In this document: one piece after another, positions 41,276 through 47,712 of the stretch
How the letters are laid out: each line of letters starts with the position of its first letter
Position numbering within the stretch: the stretch's first letter is position 1
Assembly (NCBI GenBank): GCA_016187565.1
Contig: JACPJR010000031.1
Location: forward strand, 73,796 to 137,795
Reading direction: 5' to 3'
Length of the DNA: 64,000 bases
Source: Candidatus Woesearchaeota archaeon
GTDB taxonomy: Archaea > Nanobdellota > Nanobdellia > Woesearchaeales > JACPJR01
Made by a program: the position numbers and the translations under genes
The notes under the pieces: generated by a model
What the model saw: the letters and a program-made list of their open reading frames with translations, nothing else
The model's database searches: none
Told to the model about the DNA's origin: nothing

Positions 41276-41812
41276 TTATCTTCTGCACATGCTACACACA
41301 CGGACACTATCCTGCACAGAAAGATCTCTTGCATAGCTGCCGCAGAGCTGGCAGATTCCCTCGGTTTCAGGAATCAAGGACAACTTTGTGTCTGCCTCGC
41401 GGAGCTCAAACTTCTCTACCAGAAGATCAAACAACTGCGGTTGAATACGGAGAACATCCTTAAGGGTTAAAAGACCGATCATTTTTTTGCCATCCATAAC
41501 TGGCAGGTGGCGGATATTGTGATCCTTCATCAGCAAGAGTGCTTCGTAGATGTCTTGCTCTGGTGTAATGGTAATCAACTTTGTTTCCATAAACTTTTTA
41601 ACTGCTTCTTTTGGCGAAATCTTTTTTGCCACGACCTTTCTCACAACGTCTTGTTCAGTGATAATGCCAAGGGCCTTGTGGCTGTCCTTCACCACTAAGG
41701 TGCTTACATGATGTTTGGCCATCATCTGAGCACATGCTTCAAGCGATAGCGTCTGAGCTACGACAATGGGTTTACTGGTCATCACATCGCAGACTTTATA
41801 GCCGGTTTTCAT
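41276..41812 (-). CDS. CBS-domain-pair protein with C-terminal zinc ribbon
   Basis: 178 residues: two CBS domains (about 8-60, VCDVMTSKPIVVAQTLSLEACAQMMAKHHVSTLVV; about 73-125, FMETKLITITPEQDIYEALLLMKDHNIRHLPVMDGKKMIGLL) that typically bind AMP, ATP or SAM, then a C-terminal CxxC...CxxC knuckle (CQLCG...CSMCRR). The combination is common in archaea, where such proteins act as small ligand sensors or regulators. The gene follows the hairpin-rich block 41834-42142 in the direction of transcription, with only 21 bases between them. Confidence 0.85.
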   Translation of the reverse strand: MKTGYKVCDVMTSKPIVVAQTLSLEACAQMMAKHHVSTLVVKDSHKALGIITEQDVVRKVVAKKISPKEAVKKFMETKLITITPEQDIYEALLLMKDHNIRHLPVMDGKKMIGLLTLKDVLRIQPQLFDLLVEKFELREADTKLSLIPETEGICQLCGSYARDLSVQDSVRVCSMCRR

Positions 41813-41833
41813 AGTGTAAAGTAAATTACTTTC

Positions 41834-42142
41834 GCAGCGCCACTTGAGGCGGTGCTACGGACATTTTACGTTGTAAAATGTCCTACGAGCGACTCCGGAG
41901 GAGTCATCCCTCCGCTCGTGCACGCCACGCAAACTTTACCAAAGTTTGATCAAATGGGTGTAACCTGAAGTTACACACCGCGGCCCGCGTTCTGCCAGTA
42001 TAGCCGCGTCGGAGAGCTTCATGCTCTCCCTTGCGTGTCAACTGAGCGTAACCAGTTGGGCGCTGACGCAACGGGTCCCCTCCGGGGTGTTGCGTAGGGC
42101 TGCTCGCAAGCAGCCCGTCAGCCGCCACAGTGGTGGCGTGCA
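41834..42142. ncRNA. GC-rich block of consecutive hairpins with long-range closing stem (candidate structured RNA)
   Basis: This 309-base block fills the whole gap between the pilin at 42164 and the CBS gene at 41812, both minus strand. Reading it by hand gives at least ten perfect or near-perfect stems one after another: 41834-41855, 41859-41883 (11 bp, 3-base loop), 41885-41919 (two stacked stems), 41931-41947, 41958-41976, 41979-42008, 42011-42029, 42039-42058, 42066-42095, 42097-42116, 42123-42138. TGCACGCCAC at 41919-41928 is the exact complement of 42133-42142 and could close a multi-branched domain. ACGCAA at 42066-42071 can pair with either 42031-42036 or 42090-42095. It is visibly richer in G and C than its surroundings. 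Strand unknown; it could also be a DNA-level element. Confidence 0.5.
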
Positions 42143-42163
42143 ATTTATGATCCGAATGTTCAG

Positions 42164-42625
42164 CTAATTGGCACACTTCCCTTCTAGTTTGTTGCCATCG
42201 CCGCTAAAGGTGTAGCTCCCACCGGTTTCATCATCAGTGTAGGTTACGCTGACACTATGACTAAAGGAATCTCCTGCTGCTGAACAGCCAGACCATGTAG
42301 TGTTACTACAGGTAGTACTTTGACCAGGTGCTAAGCTTGTCGAAGCACAGGTTTGGGTATTCCCACCAACAGTAAAGGCAGTAATGGTAACACTGTTTCT
42401 GAGATTATTTTTGATGGTGACATTAAAATCTTCAGCGATCTTAAAGGCAGCATATTGAGGAATAGCAATATCCGCAGTTTCCCAATACGCAGCACTTGCT
42501 CGAGAACCTGCGCTGCTTCCTATCCCAGGAATACCTCCCATTACACCAACGACAATCAGGGCAATGATAATAACAACGGCAAGAATGATAAGATACTCAG
42601 TTGCTGTCTGTGCCTTTTTCATCAT
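42164..42625 (-). CDS. Archaeal pilin-like protein with class III signal peptide
   Basis: 153 residues beginning MMKKAQTATEYLIILAVVI: a short basic leader, then the class III (type IV pilin-like) signal with the conserved Gln, Thr and Glu and a following hydrophobic helix to about residue 29. The mature part is rich in Ser, Thr, Asn and Gly, with Cys in TCAS, TTCSNTTWSGCS and EGKCAN, allowing disulphides. It is probably assembled into a pilus-like filament or kept as a surface lipoprotein-like subunit. GAGGTGGT precedes ATG 42625. The leader contains a 7-base inverted repeat ACCGTAA/TTACGGT (42668-42692). Confidence 0.8.
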   Translation of the reverse strand: MMKKAQTATEYLIILAVVIIIALIVVGVMGGIPGIGSSAGSRASAAYWETADIAIPQYAAFKIAEDFNVTIKNNLRNSVTITAFTVGGNTQTCASTSLAPGQSTTCSNTTWSGCSAAGDSFSHSVSVTYTDDETGGSYTFSGDGNKLEGKCAN

Positions 42626-42763: not shown

Positions 42764-42928
42764 AGCTTCATCCAACAGTTCTGTAACGTTCAAGTTAGCA
42801 GCTTCAAAGTCCTCTCTGTTGTCTATGATCGCCGACATTCCCCGTAAGGGACATCCCCCTTGTCGGTTGGATTCAATAATGTGATGGGACTTTGATTTGA
42901 GGCTGCTAACCTTTTTTTGGATGAAGCC
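42764..42928. mobile_element. Non-coding miniature element, copy 1 (165 bp, 9-bp target duplication)
   Basis: The element begins AGCTTCATCCAA and ends TTGGATGAAGCC (near-perfect terminal inverted repeat, one mismatch at the outer base), and is flanked by TGTAAGAGC at 42755-42763 and 42929-42937. Inside, GTTAGCAGC with TCAAAGTCC pairs with GGACTTTGA and GCTGCTAAC, and CCGACA pairs with TGTCGG, so the whole unit folds as one large hairpin. No reading frame of note. It lies in the 42626-42979 gap between the pilin promoter and the next gene. Copy 2 is at 47547. Confidence 0.8.
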
Positions 42929-47546: not shown

Positions 47547-47712
47547 AGCTTCATCCAACAATTCGCTAACGCTCAAGTTAGCAGCTTCAAAGTCCTGTAT
47601 CTTGTGTATGACCGCCGACATTCCCCGTAAGGGACATCCCCCTTGTCGGTTGGATTCAATCATTTGATGGGACTTTGACTTGAGGCTGCTAACCCTTTTT
47701 TTGGATGAAGCT
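47547..47712. mobile_element. Non-coding miniature element, copy 2 (166 bp, 9-bp target duplication)
   Basis: Ends AGCTTCATCCAA and TTGGATGAAGCT are a perfect 12-base terminal inverted repeat, flanked by GATGCCCAT at 47538-47546 and 47713-47721. It matches copy 1 at 42764 throughout, with about 13 substitutions and one single-base indel by hand alignment; the CCGACA...TGTCGG and GTTAGCAGC...GCTGCTAAC stems are unchanged. No reading frame. It lies 46 bases upstream of Orc1/Cdc6 and 79 before the GTG start at 47791, and fills most of the gap 47502-47790. The TATA-like CATTTATATA near 47738 follows directly. Confidence 0.8.

Follow-up and report, generated by a model that had tools for sequence, protein, structure and literature searches.

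INTRODUCTION

Most descriptions of inverted palindrome pairs of the REPIN kind come from bacteria that possess RAYT transposases. REPINs and BIMEs are doublets of GTAG-tagged REP sequences that go together with RAYT transposases, and these enzymes have been proposed as the movers of REPINs (PMC3116915, PMC3733652). In archaea, the transposed introns of Thermoproteales are bulge-helix-bulge introns of tRNA genes (reviewed in PMC4090602), and that review describes the mechanism by which tRNA introns move in archaea as unknown. Group I introns have been reported in archaeal rRNA genes, also in Woesearchaeota (PMC6125680).

Here, we analyze a hairpin-dense intergenic block in a Candidatus Woesearchaeota archaeon, located between a pilin gene and a CBS-domain gene at positions 41834-42142 of a 64,000-nucleotide stretch of DNA ("the window," by which we mean this whole stretch). 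This block belongs to a repeat with some thirty copies dispersed between genes and is not the leader of a single gene. It is probably a mobile, hairpin-based repeat pair, made of two inverted units that we call Y, which carries a second element, module B. The papers that we searched, covering part of the literature, contained no earlier report of Y or B elements.

RESULTS

The hairpin block is a copy of a dispersed intergenic repeat

The original prediction described the block as a dense array of hairpins closed by a long-range stem and proposed it as a candidate structured element. Upon rechecking the coordinates and pairings, we found the array where it had been placed and the pairings as listed, including a perfect 11-bp stem (41859-41869 with 41873-41883). 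The block is GC-rich (local GC ~0.51-0.59 versus ~0.28-0.47 across most of its surroundings), and it contains no convincing gene; the ORFs that overlap it are small and seem to result from its composition. Its 309 nt fold at -151.4 kcal/mol, with z = -8.2 on the plus strand (none of 100 shuffles was as good) and z = -5.8 on the opposite, minus strand. Rfam returned nothing useful at gathering or at permissive thresholds, and no match reached a gathering score; the block is not a known RNA, in line with the original prediction, which did not recognize it as one. The predicted span holds, but similarity to other copies extends slightly beyond it, from ~41812 to 42167, and, judged by BLAST similarity and ORF ends, the repeat copy spans the gap from the start codon of the CBS gene to the stop codon of the pilin gene. 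The last codons of the pilin-like ORF, whose stop lies at the repeat edge (window 42164-42190), may stem from the insertion. The features of the window copy are as follows.

41812-42167, no strand: whole repeat copy (BLAST against loci of the same genome; ORF ends)
41815-41846, no strand: left outer tail (GTAAAGTAAATTACTTTCGCAGCGCCACTTGAG...), resembled in other copies of the same genome (copies compared)
41847-41927, minus strand: Y unit 1, a three-way palindrome tagged on this strand by GTAGG-hairpin-CCGT (covariance model R2, 70.7 bits; alignment A3)
41859-41883, no strand: hairpin arm P3 of Y unit 1, which is the predicted 11-bp stem
41919-41928, no strand: inner arm of the 10-bp long-range pairing, doubling as a P1 strand of Y unit 1
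41930-42058, minus strand: module B, long form, five hairpins (P1, P3, P4, P5, and P6) between the two Y units (alignment A6, consensus fold; B-less copies)
42029-42058, minus strand: head of module B, CAACTGGTTACGCTCAGTTGACACGCAAGG, comprising the P1 hairpin and a linker (model R1, 54.4 bits; pattern scan)
42058-42127, plus strand: Y unit 2, inverted relative to Y unit 1 (model R2, 64.9 bits)
42128-42167, no strand: right outer tail, ending at the stop codon of the pilin-like ORF (42164-42166)
42133-42142, no strand: outer arm of the 10-bp pairing, within the right outer tail

When used as a BLAST query against its own genome (1.94 Mb, 35 contigs), the block yielded 34 matches on many contigs, mostly partial, and a B-less copy (locus L022) yielded 31. 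The copies occupy intergenic gaps at ~25 unrelated loci, which are co-directional, convergent, or divergent with respect to the flanking genes. Because all three settings occur, control of a specific gene by the block is unlikely. The hairpin array is real, yet it is not a gene-specific leader, and the earlier suggestions of a leader of the CBS gene or an RNA processed from the pilin transcript give way to the finding of the same block between unrelated genes.

The comparison of copies also bears on two of the predicted pairings. The long-range 10-bp stem (41919-41928 with 42133-42142) exists and is perfect, but it competes with stem P1 of Y unit 1, which covaries; by eye, the long-range stem is kept in most copies of this genome and broken in some (L010, L013). 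A switch had also been proposed, and TTGCGT, the partner needed by ACGCAA (42066-42071), is indeed present at both 42031-42036 and 42090-42095. This alternative pairing draws on the invariant linker of B, CACGCAAG, and is not conserved: copies with the arm GACGAAGC/GCTTCGT cannot form it, and the switch pairing is therefore probably a coincidence.

Side-by-side comparison of ~23 copies from this genome revealed a modular build, in which a single unit forms both the left and the right part of the block, in opposite orientation. In L019, L022, L023, and L025, the two Y units stand alone and nearly touch, with B absent, and the second copies in L013 and L021 are likewise B-less. Where B is present, it occupies two different positions, and four copies (L012, L013, L015, and L016) have a single B junction in common. 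From the B-less copies, the two positions of B, and the junction common to four copies, we conclude that B is an insert and that the composite is the unit that spread. We also observed that in L009, L011, L014, and L017, an extra cassette of several near-perfect hairpins (pairs GAAAATCC..GGATTTTC, GGAAATTC..GAATTTCC, and CGAAAATGC..GCATTTTCG) sits in the loop of the last hairpin of B.

Pairing in unit Y is conserved across the order

Read in the orientation of the right part, Y has the layout GGCG..GACG-(arm)-CGTAGG-(hairpin)-CCGTC..CGCC, a three-way junction. In an alignment of 19 copies from this genome and from another family (G033), GTAGG and CCGT are invariant and the next C is nearly so, with compensatory changes in 9 of 17 pairs; the P3 arm of Y unit 1 keeps its pairing, and its sequence varies freely between copies. 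A UNCG tetraloop was considered for the Y arm and rejected, as the register places a TNC triloop there, with C-G as its closing pair. Covariance model R2 detected Y in 65 of the 288 genomes of the order, where the counts per genome often reach the number of candidates scored and such counts are to be read as "at least." In a sample of the phylum (351 genomes), 40 were Y-positive, all 40 from the same order.

Over 110 copies, in an alignment that was fitted to the covariance model itself, pairing holds in 98.3% of 1858 pair cells, compared to 76.8% after shuffling and 30-55% when the partner was slid; in this alignment, slides of 1-3 columns gave 35-51%. The helices of Y display 397 two-sided versus 18 one-sided changes, with 13 of these 18 at the loop-closing pair, whereas the B head displays 19 two-sided and 8 one-sided changes. 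The scarcity of G-U in Y relative to the B head gave p = 9e-8 without the loop-closing pair and p = 5e-5 with it (Fisher). RNA helices normally change via G-U intermediates, and the near absence of G-U changes thus suggests that Y pairing is maintained as DNA, or through palindrome correction in replication. Neighboring Y units follow the order (-,+) in 29 of 29 pairs, spaced by exactly 3 nt in 14 of them and mostly by 31-48 nt in the rest; the gap in the window copy is 130 nt. No partner above threshold was found for 52 of the 110 copies.

The original prediction left open whether the structured element acts at the RNA or the DNA level and named homologs and covariation as the check. Both were found, and among the options offered, the DNA level is the best fit for the Y units, while module B looks more RNA- or intron-like elsewhere. 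A functional structured RNA of the CBS or pilin gene (a leader, sRNA, or riboswitch-like element) would agree with the strong fold on both strands, with the minus-strand transcription of both neighboring genes, which is the sense strand of B, and with B itself, which tolerates G-U changes as RNA does and has conserved unpaired sequence. We nevertheless regard such an RNA as quite improbable, given the repetition of the block at unrelated loci in every gene orientation, the lack of an Rfam match, the rarity of G-U changes in the Y pairs, and the nonconserved switch.

Module B shares its head with tRNA introns

On the minus strand, module B begins with its head and continues with four more hairpins, for a length of ~129 nt. 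Thirteen aligned copies of this long form share 31 consensus pairs, 18 of them with compensation. The long form recurs in several other genomes (L063, L072, L081, L083/L103, L094/L108/L119, L101/L117/L120, and L181/L183); in several other genera (L063, L072, L081, and L083), it lies at the tip of a Y arm, as it does in L012, L013, L015, and L016 of the window's genome. In two other genomes (L094/L108/L119/L121 and L101/L117/L120), the long B is bounded by clear terminal inverted repeats (roughly GTAAGTAAAAAGTC..GACTTTTTACTTAC; AGAAAGT..ACTTTCT), unlike the copies in the window's genome.

The 30-nt head is found in 77 of the 288 genomes of the order, with a maximum of 16 per genome (model R1). 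Searched as a 24-base pattern in 257 Gb from 84,980 species, it gave 33 matches, all of which are, judged by their titles, from DPANN archaea, mostly Woesearchaeota or Nanoarchaeota; the remaining hosts are one ainarchaeum, one Nanohaloarchaeota, and one titled only "archaeon." Viral contigs (IMG/VR) contained no B head.

The head of the window module is common to tRNA introns of other DPANN archaea. In other genomes, it lies inside tRNA genes, namely in T-loops (59/60), in anticodon loops, and in a D-loop, and ARAGORN rebuilds tRNAs from the joined flanks, with the break in the T-loop or the anticodon loop. We scanned the T-loop sites with a junction script that required a 5-bp T-stem, a 4-bp central helix between the T-loop TTCR and the 3' end of the insert, and 3-nt bulges. 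Eighteen loci passed, of which 17 are credible and one (L114) was counted as chance, while shuffled sequence passes at ~1% per locus. At the junction loci, purine 57 is matched by the insert base (TTCA/TGAA, TTCG/CGAA, or TTCG/CGGA). By sequence criteria, these 17 T-loop inserts with a B head are bulge-helix-bulge introns, and they are predicted to be spliced. For the window copy, inspection by eye revealed no bulge-helix-bulge junction at 41930/42058, and no tRNA was found in the window or in the joined flanks of its B.

Outside tRNAs, short forms of B (~76 bp) are flanked by direct repeats of 11-25 bp that derive from the ends of tRNAs or the starts of genes (L030, L032, L069, L077, L078, L080, L086, L087, L089, and L111). 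At L087, the short form is oriented antisense to a tRNA, which implies that some B insertion, at least, takes place at the DNA level. This bears on the reading of B as an RNA-level mobile intron of the bulge-helix-bulge type, which would enter loops by reverse splicing or ligation and for which the Y pair would be just one landing site. We consider that reading doubtful: as much as the T-loop junctions, the rebuilt tRNAs, and the presence of B in Y-arm loops of other genera argue for it, the direct repeats around the non-tRNA forms, the antisense insertion, and the window copy without a splice junction point the other way. Tentatively, and as a possibility somewhat short of probable, B may represent a new mobile-element family in DPANN archaea that hops into the loops of nucleic-acid hairpins, forming bulge-helix-bulge introns in tRNA genes and riding mobile Y-pair palindromes elsewhere. 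If true, B would be a source of archaeal tRNA introns and a handle on intron gain.

Two further arrangements were observed. At L060 (G172:C7:321575-321834), a tandem array of three ~118-bp units precedes an intact tRNase Z-like gene, each unit consisting of a B head and a copy of the start of that gene. A sister motif, CAGCTTCTTGCTAAGCTGGCACGCAG (L037, L039, L041, L066, and L090), has the same two-hairpin layout with a different loop and is located directly behind tRNA genes or nested next to a B head.

Search for a mobilizing enzyme

The window's genome carries IS200-type TnpA genes, whose proteins match the IS200 model and score below the RAYT cut-off; neither a RAYT above cut-off nor a TnpB was found in this genome. 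The ends of the resident IS200 TnpA genes match neither Y nor B, and a credible Y or B was found near none of 35 Y1 transposase loci (30 from Y-bearing genomes and 5 from the window's genome). Across the 288 genomes, and uncorrected for phylogeny and genome size, Y1 transposases co-occur with Y at an odds ratio of 4.1 (p = 2e-6) and with B at 1.7 (p = 0.07). Two genomes (G003 and G052) are Y-rich with no Y1 gene detected. That a Y1-type enzyme moves the Y pair is conceivable, though in our estimate slightly less than likely.

Integron attC-like recombination sites also come as hairpin arrays, and a GTTGGGC near the junction of B and Y unit 2 fits their R' core consensus, GTTRRRY. The copies are, however, dispersed singly over many contigs with no cassette arrays, and no integron integrase (IntI) over cut-off was found in this genome, where only a tyrosine recombinase matched the integrase model (92.6 and 72.6 bits versus a cut-off of 265); we find the attC reading hardly credible.

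An ordinary MITE of a DDE transposon would have terminal repeats and a fixed target duplication. Inspection by eye of the Y pairs in this genome revealed neither a clear fixed duplication nor a perfect terminal repeat, and the conserved core is a three-way fold rather than simple ends. Such a MITE is thus unlikely, even though the outer tails of the repeat copies are loosely inverted, terminal inverted repeats are clearly present in B-containing elements from two other genomes, and a genuine MITE lies nearby. The latter is present in two window copies (42764-42928 and 47548-47711) that are 92% identical, the first of them 600 bp from the block; both carry terminal repeats GCTTCATCCAA, and their 9-bp target duplications (TGTAAGAGC and GATGCCCAT) are clean. 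Related stretches are found in L013 (3877-4061) and in L026, where one is fused to a partial Y unit.

DISCUSSION

We infer that the Y pair with its B insert is a non-autonomous mobile DNA element that is recognized by its hairpins. In the proposed mechanism, the Y pair would be recognized as folded single-stranded DNA, analogous to thinking on REPINs, by an enzyme that acts in trans and most plausibly belongs to the HUH/Y1 class, and the pair would be copied into new intergenic sites. B would settle in hairpin loops, that is, at the center of the Y pair as seen here, at the tip of a Y arm, or in tRNA loops elsewhere, and after its insertion, the composite of Y pair and B would spread. Between the pilin and CBS genes, the insertion would merely serve as a spacer, leader, or promoter region. 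By analogy, the window copy may provide a leader, a promoter, or mRNA-stabilizing hairpins, a role that has been proposed for bacterial REPs. Woesearchaeota contain hairpin-dense intergenic blocks that could be mistaken for riboswitches, and the Y/B element accounts for one class of them.

Comparison with known systems sets the element apart from several of them. The archaeal group I introns are mobile introns as well, Woesearchaeota included, but those reported (PMC6125680) lie in rRNA genes and are longer, and no Rfam intron matched here. Miniature elements of the IS200/IS605 type likewise have hairpin ends, and IS200-type TnpA genes are present in the window's genome; that genome, however, lacks TnpB, and the ends of its TnpA elements are not shared by Y or B.

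The likeness to REPINs and BIMEs is closer. Y shares with them the short palindrome with a GTAG/CGTC-tagged foot, the intergenic location in many copies, and the inverted doublets, which can form either a single long hairpin or a clover. It differs in being archaeal, in its unit, a three-way fold of ~75-90 nt with GTAG and CGTC around one arm, and in housing a second element in its center or arms. REP sequences normally flank their cognate RAYT gene; here, such a gene was looked for in vain, as was an adjacent transposase. The element works like a REPIN that carries a second element, yet we do not file it as a REPIN, because the RAYT test came out negative. The Y pair represents an order-wide archaeal counterpart of REPIN-like pairs, one that folds differently and for which no RAYT transposase was found.

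Relatives of the B head, in turn, resemble archaeal bulge-helix-bulge tRNA introns: They lie in tRNA loops, their splice junctions match at T-loop sites in other genomes, and similar introns recur across different tRNAs. They differ from these introns in that the head is a conserved motif that also occurs outside tRNAs, and in that the long B of the window, with its five hairpins, lies within a repeat and interrupts no gene. The B insert hence connects dispersed repeats with tRNA introns, and a family that is caught both as an intron and as an insertion flanked by direct repeats makes the question of how tRNA introns transpose a testable one.
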